A program made the translations under genes and the position numbers. A stretch of 64,000 nucleotides of DNA, taken from NCBI RefSeq assembly GCF_015775515.1, contig NZ_CP065383.1, forward strand, positions 1,054,001 to 1,118,000, read 5' to 3'. Source of the stretch: Atribacter laminatus (GTDB lineage: Bacteria > Atribacterota > Atribacteria > Atribacterales > Atribacteraceae). A model generated the notes under the pieces. That model was not told where the DNA came from. It saw only the letters and a program-made list of their open reading frames with translations, and made no database searches. Each line of letters starts with the position of its first letter. Positions within the stretch are counted from its first letter, which is position 1. Below are positions 47,049 through 55,586 of this stretch, in pieces.

Positions 47049-47126
47049 GGTGAGTGTAGCTCAATTGGTCAGAGCACTGGACTGTGGCTCCAGGGGTTGG
47101 GGGTTCAAGTCCCCTCACTCACCCCA
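47049..47126 (+). tRNA. tRNA-His (anticodon GTG), CCA encoded
   Basis: The cloverleaf folds as acceptor GTGAGTG/CACTCAC, a D-arm, anticodon stem CTGGA/TCCAG with loop CTGTGGC giving anticodon GTG, and a T-arm with TTCAAGT. The extra 5' guanine (position -1) diagnostic for tRNA-His is present at 47049. CCA is encoded at 47124-47126. All bases from 47057 to the end are duplicated at 55490, marking integration of the element that follows. Confidence 0.95.
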
Positions 47127-47153
47127 AAAGTTTTTTTAGAGCCTAAATATTAA
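47057..47153 (+). repeat. attachment-site repeat, left (attL)
   Basis: Perfectly identical to 55490-55586 over 97 bp. It starts at tRNA-His position 8, includes the rest of the tRNA with CCA, and extends 27 bp beyond, through a run of T and AGAGCCTAAATATTAA. The left copy completes the functional tRNA. Confidence 0.93.
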
Positions 47154-47188: not shown

Positions 47189-47198
47189 GAGTCCGTTG
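47189..47198 (+). promoter_or_regulatory. candidate integrase arm-binding site (left)
   Basis: GAGTCCGTTG, followed by CTCTTAGAAAGG, lies between attL and the integrase start. The same 10-mer occurs twice near attR (55371-55380 and 55401-55410) and in the same orientation. Position close to both ends of the element suggests arm-type sites for the integrase. Confidence 0.5.
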
Positions 47199-47219
47199 CT
47201 CTTAGAAAGGGGTTTTAAA

Positions 47220-48152
47220 ATGGGAAAAACATTAAAATTACTCACCATCTTAACCTGGGAAGAGTACCTATCAGAGTTTTTTATTGAAAAGAGGGTACAA
47301 GGGTGTAGGGAAAGAACTATTCAAGACTATAAACTTCATCTTGACCTCTTTTTTCGAACTTATCAAGGTGATATCGATAATTATCATTTGTTGTGTAATA
47401 AGGTGAAGGAATATTTCTCAACTTCTACTATCGCTCCGGCAACTTTCAACATTCGAAGAGCTTACCTCAAGTCCTTTTTTTCTTATCTGGTAAATGTTGG
47501 AGTTCTTCCTAAAAACCCCATTGACTTTTCCAAGAGAAAGGATGAGGGAAGGGCCCGGAATGTTTCCCAGGATGTTTTAATTGAGCTTTTAAAACTCCCC
47601 GATAAGAAAACCTTTGCCGGTCTTCGGGACTATTGCCTTATCCTCTTAACTTTGGATACTGGAATACGCCCCCAAGAGGCTTTATCACTCCTTCCCAAGG
47701 ATATAAACCTTTCCGGCCTGGAAGTTACCATTAGAAAAGAAATAGCCAAGACTAAAACCACTCGAACCGTTCCCATTTCACCACTTACCGCAACTCATAT
47801 TCAAAAATTATTGAAAGTACGCCTTTCTACTTGGCATGATAATATACCGGTTTTTTGTTCCTATGAGGGAAAACCCTTTCTTGAGTCTTCCTGGGCTCAC
47901 CGGTTGAAAAAGTACAGTTATCAACTTGGCCATTCCATAACTCCGTATTCCTTGCGCCATTCTTTTGCTCTTTTGTATCTCCGGAATGGTGGGAATGTGT
48001 TTACACTTCAAAGAACCATGGGGCACGCTGACTTGAACATGACCAAAAGGTATTTAGCATTAACTGGAGAAGACTTGAAGAGAGAGCATAAAACTGCTTC
48101 ACCAATAAATTTATTTAATAAAAAAAGGGTTAAGAATATAAACCCGAAATAA
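47220..48152 (+). CDS. int: tyrosine-type site-specific integrase
   Basis: A 310-residue tyrosine recombinase that would join attP to the tRNA-His attB. It has an N-terminal SAM-like core-binding domain (about 10-95) and a C-terminal catalytic domain with box I arginine in LDTGIRPQEAL, the H-x-x-R-like SLRHSFALLYL, the histidine of TMGHADLNMT and the nucleophile tyrosine in KRYLAL. ATG 47220 is preferred over the upstream TTG at 47196, because AAAGGGG precedes it and the TTG lies in the repeat at 47189. Adjacent to attL, as is usual. Confidence 0.93.
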   Translation: MGKTLKLLTILTWEEYLSEFFIEKRVQGCRERTIQDYKLHLDLFFRTYQGDIDNYHLLCNKVKEYFSTSTIAPATFNIRRAYLKSFFSYLVNVGVLPKNPIDFSKRKDEGRARNVSQDVLIELLKLPDKKTFAGLRDYCLILLTLDTGIRPQEALSLLPKDINLSGLEVTIRKEIAKTKTTRTVPISPLTATHIQKLLKVRLSTWHDNIPVFCSYEGKPFLESSWAHRLKKYSYQLGHSITPYSLRHSFALLYLRNGGNVFTLQRTMGHADLNMTKRYLALTGEDLKREHKTASPINLFNKKRVKNINPK

Positions 48153-48684: not shown

Positions 48685-48891
48685 TCACTTCTTCCTTTTA
48701 TTCTTTGGCTCTGTTTTCATTTTTAAAAACTGCTCTATATCCTCCTGGGTGGAATACCAAGCATTCCCAAGTTTAACCCCTCTCATCCGGCCAGTTGAAA
48801 AATAGGTTCTAATGGTTACATCAGTAATACCTAACATTTCTGATATTTCTTTAATATTGTAATATTCCTTCTTAAAAACAACTTTAGGCAT
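48685..48891 (-). CDS. excisionase-like helix-turn-helix DNA-binding protein
   Basis: A 68-residue MerR/excisionase-like (HTH_17) protein. The recognition region is YYNIKEISEMLGITDVTIRTYFSTGRMRGVKLGNAWYS, and the tail is strongly basic (KNKRKK). I choose the ATG at 48891 because GGGGTGAGGG precedes it; an in-frame ATG at 48909 is possible. Convergent to the integrase operon. It is the obvious candidate for directing excision of the element, though a regulatory role is equally possible. Confidence 0.75.
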   Translation of the reverse strand: MPKVVFKKEYYNIKEISEMLGITDVTIRTYFSTGRMRGVKLGNAWYSTQEDIEQFLKMKTEPKNKRKK

Positions 48892-48909
48892 ACCCTCACC
48901 CCATATCAT

Positions 48910-50034: not shown

Positions 50035-50251
50035 GGTTCACCTTTGATATTTCTTCATTCCAAGTGTTTATAAGTTCCTGGGGTAGGTCTTCCCCCGGGT
50101 GCTTTGTTAAAAATTCTCGGGCTTTAAAGGCCATGGAAACCAAAACCGGAGAAGTAAAAATAAATGAGGGGAATACATCATTCTCTTTAGAGGGTGAAGG
50201 GGTTAGGAATACCTCCAGGCGTTTTATTCTTTGTTCAATGGCGCTCATCAT
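50024..50251 (-). CDS. RIKxLE small protein 1
   Basis: A 75-residue protein starting MMSAIEQRIKRLEVFLTPS. The remainder includes MAFKAREFLTKHPGEDLPQELINTW, predicted helical. It overlaps the terminase-small-like gene upstream by 17 bp and small protein 2 downstream by 11 bp. Function unknown; membership rests on the shared N-terminal motif. Confidence 0.66.
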   Translation of the reverse strand: MMSAIEQRIKRLEVFLTPSPSKENDVFPSFIFTSPVLVSMAFKAREFLTKHPGEDLPQELINTWNEEISKVNHEL

Positions 50252-50621
50252 CCATCATCCTCTTTTCCAGGGCTTCTAAGCGTTCCTCCAGGTCTTCAAT
50301 TTCAACCGCTCTTATGGCTAATTCTAAAATAGTCTTGGCTGCCGATACCTTGGCACTTTCCACCACCCCATTACCCATGACATCAAGCAAGGTTTCAACC
50401 GCTTTGGTTACTGACTTTTGAACCTGGGTAAGAGCATGACCAACTATTTCTTTTTTAGCTTTCCGGAAGACTGCTTGAAATTCTGAGTCATTCAACCATC
50501 GAAACATGGTACTTTGAGATATCCCAGCTTCTTGAGCGGCCAGGGTAATAGTTGGTTGGGTGATAAGACAAGCGATAGCCTTTTCCTTTTTTCGTAACAT
50601 TTTTTTACTGGTTTCTACCAT
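50235..50621 (-). CDS. HTH protein resembling phage terminase small subunits (phBC6A51-like)
   Basis: A 128-residue protein with an N-terminal helix-turn-helix (EKAIACLITQPTITLAAQEA, GISQSTMFRWLNDSEF) of the type found in terminase small subunits and related phage HTH proteins, followed by a long helical region and C-terminal RLEALEKRMM coil. No large subunit or portal gene lies nearby, so it may bind DNA for regulation or helper-phage packaging. Part of the leftward operon. Confidence 0.72.
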   Translation of the reverse strand: MVETSKKMLRKKEKAIACLITQPTITLAAQEAGISQSTMFRWLNDSEFQAVFRKAKKEIVGHALTQVQKSVTKAVETLLDVMGNGVVESAKVSAAKTILELAIRAVEIEDLEERLEALEKRMMDDERH

Positions 50622-50627
50622 TTCGGT

Positions 50628-50939
50628 TTACTCACTTTCAATTTTTATAGTCTTTAAAACGTCCTGGGCATATTTCATTCTTTTAATATTTTCTTGTCGT
50701 TCCGCTTCGTCAAAAACCCCTTCCCAAAACCAACGGGCATATTTACGCCATTCTTTCATGTCGTTATCCATTGCTCTTTCAGTAAGGAAGGTTATTAATT
50801 CCTGTTTATACTCCTTCACCAGGTTAATTAAGTCGGGGGTGAGTTTTTCTTCCTCACCCCTCAGCTTTATATCACCATCTTTGAGGTAAATTTCAATGTT
50901 GCGCTTTTCGAGTTCCTCGAGAAGTTCAAAGGTATTCAT
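50628..50939 (-). CDS. protein with TubC N-terminal docking-like domain
   Basis: A 103-residue protein. ELLEELEKRNIEIYLKDGDIK followed by LTPDLINLVKEYKQELITFL matches the TubC_N docking-domain pattern often found next to replication proteins of mobile elements. The C-terminal half is charged with WRKYARWFWEGVFDEAERQ. Its ATG (50939-50937) shares bases with the replicase stop (TAATG), so it is translationally coupled; the longer ORF from 50978 would be inside the replicase gene. Confidence 0.72.
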   Translation of the reverse strand: MNTFELLEELEKRNIEIYLKDGDIKLRGEEEKLTPDLINLVKEYKQELITFLTERAMDNDMKEWRKYARWFWEGVFDEAERQENIKRMKYAQDVLKTIKIESE

Positions 50940-53272
50940 TAAATTGTAAACTCCTTTCTCGTTATACCATCGCAACATTTAACATACTCACTTTTTAAAG
51001 GGCGTTCAGGAACTTTGGGTTCTTCCTCTTGCTCAAAATTAAAAGGCTCGATATCATCCAGGACTAATTCATTCTCGTTATGTTTAAAATTGAAGGGTTC
51101 AATGTCTGGTTTTTCTTCTTGCTCAAAATTAGGGGGTAGGTCTTCATCCTCGGGGTTGTTGTCCAAAATTAGATGTTGTTTTTTATCGGTCCTTTCCCTA
51201 TGATGGGGAGATATATGGTCCGATAAGTCGGAAACGGGCATGGTTGAGCGAATTATATCGGACCTGGTATGGTCCGATAAATTAGGACTATGGTCCGATA
51301 TATTTATTTTATCGGACCTAAAACCAGGATATCGGACCATGGTACTACCCGATATATTTTGCTCTACTAAGCTATTTATATTGGTATCGGGTAGTAAATT
51401 GCCCCCCACCATAGAAGGGTCCGATATATTTCTATTCCAAACTGAATAAATGGTACTTTTATTTTTACCCCTAACTTTGAGCTTCTTTTCCTTTTTCAGG
51501 CTTGACAACATTCTTCTTAGATATCGTTCATTGGTTGAAAAGGGTAATAAATTTTCAATATCTGCCCGGGTAAACTCAACACCTTGAAAATTATTTAAGA
51601 TGGTTTGCCAAAGTGCTTCTTTGTAGTTCTTTCCATCGGGGTTCTTATCAATGGTCATGGTTGTAAACTCTTGGTCGTAGTCATCATATTCATCCTCGAG
51701 GGTGAATGAGAATTGAGGGAATTCTTTCACCCATCCGGCCAGGTAATGAACCAAGTGTTTTTTCTCCCCGGTCTTCTCATTTACTTTGAGTTCAACCCCT
51801 ATTGAAGAACCGGCAAACCTCATTAATACCCCACTTCCTGAAATATCATGTTGGCTCATGGTCAAACCCTCTTGCTCTTTTCTGGGTTTCCTGGAATGGT
51901 AGAGAGTTACTAAAGCTATTTGGTACTTTTCGGCTAATTGGTTCAAATACAAGGCGATAGGCTTGGCGTTCTCTTCCTTGATAAGGTCGCTCAAGGTTAG
52001 GGAACTTAAAGAGTCCAGGAATACCAATTGAGCTTTAGAACTTTGGATGAACTTTTCAAGACGGGCTCTTCCTTTTTCGGTTGCTAAGTCAACATCAAGG
52101 CCGTCTTTGGCTAATTCGTTTTGGTAGAGGAAAAGAATGTTATCAGGGTTGTAATTCCATCTGGTTTTCCGCAACCGGCTCATGGGTTGGGTTTTGCTGG
52201 TATCGGCTAACACGTAGAGAATTCTTAAAGGGTGTTCCAGGTCGCTCACCCCATCAAGAACCGGACCACCCAAGGATACATCGCAGGCTATTTTCAAACT
52301 CAACCATGACTTACCGGTTTTAGGATACCCTACCAACCAAGTTAAATACCCTCTTGGGATAAGTCCGGGTATAGTCCAGGTAATTTCATCTTTCTCATTG
52401 GGGCTTGGTTTCCTGAAAAACTCAAGAGGGTTAAAGGTGAAAGTCTCTTTCTCTTTCCCAATGCCTAACCACTCCAAGGCTTTGTCTATTGCTTCTGGGT
52501 TCATGAGTTCTTTTAGCTTGGGAATTCCGGTAATGGGTTCTTTATCGCTTTTCTGGGAGGTATTCTTCACCTGGGCAAGCCTCATTCCTACTTCTTCATC
52601 TTGGGCTGCTGTGCATACCGCCTCAAGAAAAGTTCTGGTTTCCTCAATGGTGAACCCATGCTTTAGAAGAGTTCCGGCTAATGCCATAGAGGCCTCTTGT
52701 CTTGTACCTTGAGAAGGCCAATGCCAGGAGAAGAGAACCGCAGCGGCTAACATTGAAACCCGTCTTTTGAGGTCATCAGGGGCAAGAGTTACCGGTTCAA
52801 GGTTATTTACCCACTTATACTCTTCACCGTTAGGATGAATTGATGGTGGGAAAACTGTCTGTCTTCCTGTGCTTCGAAGTTCTACTATCATAACGCTTTC
52901 TTTGTCGTCTTCTCTTTCATCAATAGGAACCAATTCTTTTCTTATCGGGAACTGTTTAGTTTCAACTCCTGGGCAAGTATAGAGCTTGTGGCTTACTTTT
53001 TTTATGCCTTCACCATGACCAAAGGCCAGGGTATCGGGTAAAAAGAATTTTGCTATTTTAACCGCTGCTTTGGTATCAAGGTCAACGTCTACCAGGCCTT
53101 GAGAAGGAGAACCCAGGAGAACTCCAACGTTTGAGTTATTGTGGAAATGCTCCGGAATGTCACTTTCGCTAATACGTAAATTTTGCCAGTTATCCAATAT
53201 CGCTTTTTTGCTTCGAGGGGGGATGGGAATTATCTCCCACCCCCGGGAAATGTAATTAATTAGATGGTTCAT
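50939..53272 (-). CDS. replication protein: primase-polymerase (prim-pol) plus RecA-like helicase
   Basis: A 777-residue protein. Residues 1-165 form a bifunctional primase/polymerase domain with catalytic VDVDLD (62-66), SHKLY (H95) and ELRSTGRQ ... PPSIHP (131-147). A linker (about 190-240) resembles primase C-terminal helices. Residues 300-500 are a RecA/RepA-like ATPase with Walker A GYPKTGKS (315-322) and Walker B LVFLDSLSSL (D420). A winged-helix-like region (about 555-612) precedes a disordered tail (616-777) with duplicated DIEPFNF and NFEQEE motifs. The gene part encoding 616-696 carries the iteron array. This is the element's probable replication initiator. Confidence 0.88.
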   Translation of the reverse strand: MNHLINYISRGWEIIPIPPRSKKAILDNWQNLRISESDIPEHFHNNSNVGVLLGSPSQGLVDVDLDTKAAVKIAKFFLPDTLAFGHGEGIKKVSHKLYTCPGVETKQFPIRKELVPIDEREDDKESVMIVELRSTGRQTVFPPSIHPNGEEYKWVNNLEPVTLAPDDLKRRVSMLAAAVLFSWHWPSQGTRQEASMALAGTLLKHGFTIEETRTFLEAVCTAAQDEEVGMRLAQVKNTSQKSDKEPITGIPKLKELMNPEAIDKALEWLGIGKEKETFTFNPLEFFRKPSPNEKDEITWTIPGLIPRGYLTWLVGYPKTGKSWLSLKIACDVSLGGPVLDGVSDLEHPLRILYVLADTSKTQPMSRLRKTRWNYNPDNILFLYQNELAKDGLDVDLATEKGRARLEKFIQSSKAQLVFLDSLSSLTLSDLIKEENAKPIALYLNQLAEKYQIALVTLYHSRKPRKEQEGLTMSQHDISGSGVLMRFAGSSIGVELKVNEKTGEKKHLVHYLAGWVKEFPQFSFTLEDEYDDYDQEFTTMTIDKNPDGKNYKEALWQTILNNFQGVEFTRADIENLLPFSTNERYLRRMLSSLKKEKKLKVRGKNKSTIYSVWNRNISDPSMVGGNLLPDTNINSLVEQNISGSTMVRYPGFRSDKINISDHSPNLSDHTRSDIIRSTMPVSDLSDHISPHHRERTDKKQHLILDNNPEDEDLPPNFEQEEKPDIEPFNFKHNENELVLDDIEPFNFEQEEEPKVPERPLKSEYVKCCDGITRKEFTI
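51184..51426. repeat. iteron-like array of GGTCCGATA within the replicase gene
   Basis: The 9-mer GGTCCGATA occurs exactly at 51217-51225, 51271-51279, 51292-51300 and 51418-51426, and its complement TATCGGACC at 51256-51264, 51310-51318 and 51330-51338; near-copies are at 51184, 51347 and 51385. Central copies are spaced 15-21 bp. Two pairs form inverted repeats (51256-51279 and 51292-51318). Because copies occur in both orientations, the conservation is at DNA level. This looks like a binding array or origin for the encoded initiator. Confidence 0.7.
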
Positions 53273-53280
53273 TTCTCCTC

Positions 53281-53685
53281 CTAAAACAAACTTAATTGCT
53301 GTTTGTTCTCGACTTTAGGTTTATTTTTAATTGTGAATAATAGGGGTAAAGGCTGCTTTTCTACGGTTAATTCTCGAGGAATTTCCTTACTCTTGGAGGT
53401 TATCCAATAATTTAGAGGGAGGGCCAATTGCCGGCCATGCCCTCGGTCTGTGAAAATGTTTTTCTTCTTGAATTGCTCCACTGTGGTTGAATAGTACATT
53501 TTTTCTTCACGCTCAAATATTTGCAGGTATTTAATGCCTTCTTCAACCGCTTCATTAAAAATATCCTCATCAATGGCAATACCTGGGGGGGTTGTCAAGA
53601 AATGCTTACTTTTTGAACACCGCTTGAATAAAATATCGCCATCGTGTATAATACGGTATCCATATAGTTTAGAATTTACATTCAT
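53281..53685 (-). CDS. small protein with C-terminal sliding-clamp-binding motif
   Basis: A 134-residue protein ending in KQQLSLF, which fits the beta-clamp (DnaN)-binding consensus QLxLF at the extreme C-terminus. The rest (YGYRIIHDGDILFKRCSKSKHF; FNEAVEEGIKYLQIFEREE) has no recognised domain. It lies 8 bp upstream of the replicase and after the Cro-like gene, so a role in coupling element replication to the host replisome is plausible. Confidence 0.72.
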   Translation of the reverse strand: MNVNSKLYGYRIIHDGDILFKRCSKSKHFLTTPPGIAIDEDIFNEAVEEGIKYLQIFEREEKMYYSTTVEQFKKKNIFTDRGHGRQLALPLNYWITSKSKEIPRELTVEKQPLPLLFTIKNKPKVENKQQLSLF

Positions 53686-55489: not shown

Positions 55490-55586
55490 TAGCTCAATTG
55501 GTCAGAGCACTGGACTGTGGCTCCAGGGGTTGGGGGTTCAAGTCCCCTCACTCACCCCAAAAGTTTTTTTAGAGCCTAAATATTAA
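55490..55586 (+). repeat. attachment-site repeat, right (attR) with truncated tRNA-His
   Basis: Exact copy of 47057-47153. The 5' acceptor strand preceding it is AAACCCCA, which cannot pair with CACTCAC, so this is not a functional tRNA. It marks the junction to the chromosome; the flank beyond is the original 3' neighbour of the tRNA gene. Confidence 0.93.

Follow-up and report, generated by a model that had tools for sequence, protein, structure and literature searches.

A putative iteron array within the coding sequence of a PrimPol-helicase initiator gene of Atribacter laminatus and its counterparts in RepA-like helicase genes

The replication gene of an integrated element of Atribacter laminatus carries, inside its own coding sequence, an array of the 9-mer GGTCCGATA. 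These repeats are probably iterons bound by the replication protein encoded around them, and together they would form the replication origin of the element. Selection acting on the array as DNA, within a gene segment whose encoded protein can vary freely, is strongly supported by synonymous shuffles of the gene, by the mixed orientations and frames of 40 out of 43 homologous arrays and by repeat motifs that outlast the surrounding tail in the closest related pairs. Binding of the repeats by the protein, their recognition by its winged-helix domain (wHTH) and the origin activity itself are what we infer from the sequence.

Seven exact copies of GGTCCGATA, four on the forward and three on the reverse strand, lie within positions 51217-51426 of the analysed stretch (64,000 nt, hereafter the window), and an exact 9-mer count over the whole window found none elsewhere. 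Dinucleotide shuffling (100 shuffles) gave a mean of 0.22 copies and a maximum of 2 for the entire window; as is characteristic of iteron origins, short repeats are thus clustered far above chance at an initiator gene. An earlier note on this DNA had reported the seven copies in both orientations correctly, and had proposed a genome search for the 9-mer outside the window as a check. The A. laminatus genome (one contig, 3.1 Mb) contains 28 copies, the 21 outside the array being single and scattered, that is, background. The elements of the array are as follows:

51217-51225, forward strand: repeat GGTCCGATA, exact match
51256-51264, reverse strand: repeat GGTCCGATA, exact match
51271-51279, forward strand: repeat GGTCCGATA, exact match
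51292-51300, forward strand: repeat GGTCCGATA, exact match
51310-51318, reverse strand: repeat GGTCCGATA, exact match
51330-51338, reverse strand: repeat GGTCCGATA, exact match
51418-51426, forward strand: repeat GGTCCGATA, exact match
51184-51192, reverse strand: GGACCGATA, copy with one mismatch, from a mismatch search
51419-51498, no strand: AT-rich stretch adjoining the array, 72% AT in 60-bp windows versus a gene mean of 58%, a modest difference

The count of at least three additional near-copies was too generous, because 51184 is the single further site in the array region at up to two mismatches (0.44 expected by chance); the CCCGATA look-alikes near 51347 and 51385 have only the core CCGATA in common with GGTCCGATA. 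Start-to-start spacings are 39, 15, 21, 18, 20 and 88 bp, so that the described distance of about two helical turns applies to the three central spacings and not to the remainder. Both inverted pairs were found as described (51256/51271 with a gap of 6 bp and 51292/51310 with a gap of 9 bp), and an imperfect 29-bp inverted repeat spans 51283-51347. The AT-rich stretch could possibly act as an unwinding element, for which it is a weak candidate.

The gene surrounding the array encodes a protein uniting a PrimPol domain, a P-loop helicase and a C-terminal winged helix, the last of these by structure prediction only:

50939-53272, reverse strand: replication protein gene, 777 aa, PrimPol, RepA-like helicase, wHTH and disordered tail (Pfam Prim-Pol 2e-18, AAA_25 2e-22)
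52775-53257, reverse strand: PrimPol domain, aa 6-166 (Pfam Prim-Pol)
51881-52405, reverse strand: RepA/KaiC-type helicase core, aa 290-464 (AAA_25; Foldseek matches to KaiC, RecA, DnaB and RSF1010 RepA)
51437-51625, reverse strand: aa 550-612, predicted to fold as a winged helix, the candidate domain for reading the repeats (AlphaFold2, H-H-H-E-E, pLDDT 72-85 in most blocks)
50942-51430, reverse strand: C-terminal tail, aa 615-777, predicted to be disordered, contains the array (pLDDT 22-32)

In the AlphaFold2 model, which is of moderate quality and was built from an alignment of two Atribacteria homologues, residues 550-612 form three helices and two strands in winged-helix order, and nearly no structure is predicted from residue 615 to the C-terminus. 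The array begins directly behind the predicted winged helix, and its location in a disordered linker of the prim-pol/helicase gene, pointed out in the earlier note, agrees with the model. The wHTH region of the window protein has no Pfam match above the cut-off; the corresponding region of the Caldicellulosiruptor bescii homologue matches HTH_24/HTH_IclR above it. Pfam detects PrimPol and AAA_25 only and no O-type domain, indicating that the protein is not homologous to phage replication protein O.

The gene resides in an integrated element of about 8.4 kb, delimited by 97-bp direct repeats at a tRNA-His gene and equipped with a tyrosine integrase:

47057-47153, forward strand: attL, 97-bp perfect direct repeat that takes in the greater part of tRNA-His (47050-47126) plus 27 bp past it (exact repeat)
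55490-55586, forward strand: attR, right copy of the 97-bp repeat (exact repeat)
47196-48152, forward strand: tyrosine integrase (Pfam Phage_integrase, E 8e-28; phrog_1, E 2e-46)
48685-48909, reverse strand: small HTH_17/MerR-like, excisionase-like protein (Pfam HTH_17, 7e-9; phrog_66/1840 excisionase)
50235-50621, reverse strand: HTH protein resembling terminase small subunits (phrog_2538, E 4e-12)
50628-50978, reverse strand: TubC_N-like protein, kept beside the rep gene in related elements (Pfam TubC_N, 5e-10; homologues in L010 and L189 by inspection)

The att repeat occurs in exactly two perfect copies in the whole genome. With its integrase, Rep and terminase-small-like genes the element might be a phage satellite, a class that combines integrase, replication and packaging-related genes, lacks a complete virion set and is induced by a helper. 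The rep gene is flanked by the TubC_N-like gene and by an orphan ORF of 134 aa (53281-53685), an arrangement found likewise in L010 and L189, and in G024, too, a homologue of the orphan ORF lies ahead of the rep gene. Among named relatives, Candidatus Atribacteria MAGs are the nearest; searches with the whole protein and with a three-row alignment found no viral relatives, and the same search in genome contigs yielded two Atribacteria loci only.

A second element of the same genome, at about 2.31 Mb (L189 2490-5467, about 2.3125-2.3155 Mb), has the same gene order, with a homologue of 53281-53685, a PrimPol-helicase gene broken into two ORFs, a TubC_N-like gene and a terminase-small-like gene. 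At the linker position of the window array it carries six exact and four one-mismatch copies of another 9-mer, ACTTGGTAA, and no copy of GGTCCGATA. Different repeat words in two elements of one genome are what plasmid incompatibility would favour, an anecdotal observation given that it concerns one pair. A third relative (L196 6167-8271, about 1.5262-1.5283 Mb of the A. laminatus genome) shares the small ORF and the terminase-small-like gene and lacks a 9-mer array; since a different gene occupies the PrimPol-helicase position, replication modules seem to be exchangeable in this family of elements.

The three homologues examined first all have arrays; they are on a Lake Pavin Atribacteria contig (six copies of ATTAGCTAC), on a second Atribacteria contig with a helicase fused to a PolA-type polymerase (five copies of AACCGAATC) and on C. 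bescii plasmid pATHE01 (seven copies of ATTCACTCT). The CSSed11 Atribacteria contig (L044, 2-2719) encodes a RepA-like helicase, wHTH and array linker fused in frame to an apparent PolA-type exonuclease-polymerase. For a broader survey, about 780 further genomes were searched with a profile built from five diverse helicases, and the hits, combined with the earlier loci and regions, gave 143 distinct genes; a gene was scored as having an array if one 9-mer occurred four or more times, without overlap, within 300 bp. Of the 143 RepA-like helicase genes, which come from many bacterial families, 43 have such an array. The proportion is not a census, because a single genome group, the relatives of G240, weighs heavily in the sample; homologues of this group lie on plasmids of Nostoc and Anabaena. 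All 43 arrays begin past the matched helicase/wHTH domain, in most cases no more than 60 aa away, while tails make up 21% of residues; at the larger offsets the profile match probably ended early. The arrays comprise 41 different 9-mers and 36 of them are in mixed orientation. Genes with tails longer than 200 aa have an array in 30 of 38 cases, the other eight having none at threshold, and genes with tails of at most 40 aa in none of 32. Four copies were reached by only one of 715 synonymous shuffles and by two of 81 neighbouring ORFs.

Plasmids bearing such arrays include pATHE01, plasmid3 of Nostoc sp. HK-01 and pANACY.03 of Anabaena. Homologous genes on plasmids of Gloeothece (Cy782202), Aulosira and Synechocystis B12 have no internal array at threshold, and none was found in Gordonia ObLaDi, Mycobacterium Tydolla, Vibrio 1.123.O, ctLpZ231, ctVRi840 or an E. 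faecalis plasmid. Flanking DNA contains an array in 13 of 93 genes without an internal one (L117, L093, L056, L155 and nine others, with 4-8 copies of a 9-mer), against none of 247 shuffled flanks, and also in 7 of 39 genes with one; the flanking arrays are perhaps origins located outside the gene. At one locus (L042, G215), copies of TTGGCCCAAAAT are found in the tail of the helicase gene as well as towards the end of an upstream ORF, so that two arrays flank one initiator. Similarity of the motifs tracks similarity of the initiators (Mantel r of 0.34 for the helicase and 0.21 for the wHTH, matched by none of 2000 permutations), and a partial Mantel test did not single out the wHTH as the reader (p 0.24).

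Constraint on DNA had originally been argued from copies lying in different frames, which is true of one copy out of seven. The other six share one codon phase and encode x-S-D-x peptides, both orientations fitting that phase because TCC GAT and TCG GAC both specify Ser-Asp. Such a pattern is what one would see if the repeats were a protein feature, for example a Ser-Asp peptide repeated in the tail for docking of a host replication protein, with codons made alike by drift or local duplication. Since the frame argument is weak for the window gene, it was replaced by three other tests. Synonymous codon shuffling, which preserves protein and codon usage, destroys the array: no 9-mer exceeded three copies per 300 bp and none of 300 trials reached seven. 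Homologous arrays occupy the same place with other sequences and unrelated peptides (QLAT, VANY, DSVI, IHSI, SDPL), and in 40 of the 43 the copies of one 9-mer fall into two or more orientation/frame classes, so what repeats is not a peptide. The third test compared the motifs with the rest of the tail in related genes. Among seven related pairs, nucleotide identity in the best-conserved one (L123-L129) is 0.98 for the motif, 0.48 for the non-motif tail and 0.72 for the domain; the corresponding values for L055-L058 are 0.93, 0.67 and 0.79, and the excess is also clear for L140-L129 (0.66 vs 0.43). As the four remaining pairs have little or no excess, the pair test backs DNA-level constraint in the closest relatives only. 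Constraint on DNA is therefore upheld on evidence other than the frames, and it is extremely unlikely that the array exists for the sake of a peptide. Local tandem or inverted duplications, or a short mobile palindrome, might also have left such copies behind as functionless remnants in a non-essential tail: disordered tails tolerate repeats, and some copies recur at a distance of 54 bp (51217/51271 and 51256/51310). Yet beyond short flanks the copies have just the 9-mer in common, the same placement is found in 43 genes with 41 sequences, and in two related pairs the motifs are 93-98% identical despite the diverging tail, which makes this origin of the array very improbable. Shuffles, related pairs and orientation/frame classes led us to reject both explanations.

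An alternative that accepts selection on DNA is that Rep or another regulator of the element binds the array as an operator or roadblock within the gene and so limits Rep transcription or copy number, the origin being elsewhere. Binding sites of initiators often serve in copy control, the DNA-level constraint fits an operator as well, given that the data do not specify the process using the array, and some homologues have their repeat arrays in flanking DNA and not inside the gene. On the other hand, about 1.85 kb of coding sequence precedes the array, no promoter- or terminator-like site was found near it, and mixed-orientation arrays of 4-10 units beside a wHTH in unrelated elements resemble docking sites of an initiator more than operators. 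We consider regulation without origin function unlikely.

Intragenic iterons have precedents. In phage lambda, the iterons bound by the initiator lie within gene O, beside an AT-rich stretch (PMC5043065, PMC4488673). The window gene likewise holds putative iterons, with a modestly AT-rich stretch alongside. Lambda O, however, has no helicase or primase and binds via its N-terminal half, whereas in the window protein the candidate DNA-binding domain follows the PrimPol-helicase and the array follows that domain. The window repeats are exact and 9 bp long, while lambda O reaches only three copies by the 9-mer test; the threshold is thus conservative, since lambda O would be missed. In the lactococcal phages TP901-1 and Tuc2009, proteins bind direct repeats inside their own rep genes, which act as ori (PMC8965321). 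The window case likewise has intragenic repeats in the gene of a replication protein; the TP901-1 and Tuc2009 proteins are described as replisome organizers and not as primase-helicase fusions. The initiator helicases Rep of SaPI and Cch2 of SCCmec recognise short iterons through a C-terminal domain (PMC7581432) and resemble the window protein as initiator helicases of mobile elements, the latter with a candidate C-terminal reader of iterons; their iterons, in contrast, are located downstream of the helicase gene and not inside it, and the SCCmec primase is a separate protein (PMC7581432).

A comparable domain architecture is known from the PrimPol-PV1 supergroup, PrimQH family. Its members join a primase to a P-loop ATPase, of the RepA type or another, with a WH domain at the C-terminus; they too are carried by integrated elements, often in tRNA genes, and the WH has been proposed to recognise the origin (PMC5862659). 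A text search of that article found no mention of iterons. The AAA ATPase of C. bescii pATHE01 is 31% identical to the window protein over most of the PrimPol and helicase and likewise has a wHTH followed by a tail array, seven exact copies of ATTCACTCT in both orientations. Unlike the window element, pATHE01 is a free 8.3-kb plasmid, and its repeats are largely tandem; no mapped origin was found in the article consulted. Cyanobacterial CyRepA/CyRepX Reps were set aside, as they are DEXDc-type helicases and the text searched does not mention iterons, and a literature search on N15 repA as a parallel returned nothing usable. In a search largely outside the subscription literature, we found no published report of an intragenic array behind a PrimPol-RepA winged helix. 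The window case joins known parts, namely an intragenic iteron-like array, a PrimPol-RepA helicase and a position behind the winged helix, in a combination that recurs widely with changing sequence. On the best reading, the array would be an iteron origin contained in the gene of its initiator, like that of lambda O, in an initiator class unrelated to O.

An origin embedded in its own initiator gene best accounts for the array, because the place beside the winged helix is conserved in these initiator helicases and the genome has two elements whose arrays differ. Of the earlier proposal, that the array is the origin of the element or autoregulates its gene, DNA-level selection stands and the origin is the preferred part, while the accompanying claims about frames and near-copies were overstated. 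Under the proposed mechanism, the replication protein would bind its own repeats, most likely via the winged-helix domain preceding the tail, and assemble a helicase ring at the array; the nearby AT-rich DNA (51419-51498) would be melted and the PrimPol domain would prime synthesis. Since the tail is disordered, the gene can carry a DNA signal without damage to the protein. Initiator and origin would travel as one unit, and the specificity of both would change together. GC skew was examined in four complete plasmids carrying such genes; its minima failed to mark the arrays or were weak and uninformative.

We further consider it reasonably likely that origins of this kind, iteron arrays placed in the disordered tail just behind a C-terminal wHTH, are common among RepA-like helicase initiators of several bacterial phyla, each lineage with its own repeat word, and that different words may allow co-resident elements to avoid incompatibility. 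If this is true, the origins of plasmids, phages and integrated elements of a large class that is still mostly unstudied, including those of uncultured bacteria, could be read directly from the initiator gene, and dozens of natural initiator/repeat pairs would be available for studying origin specificity and the evolution of incompatibility. The gene itself would be the replicon, and a single gene fragment would be a portable one, useful for vectors. The persistence of disordered tails in replication proteins might then reflect the DNA message that is held there.
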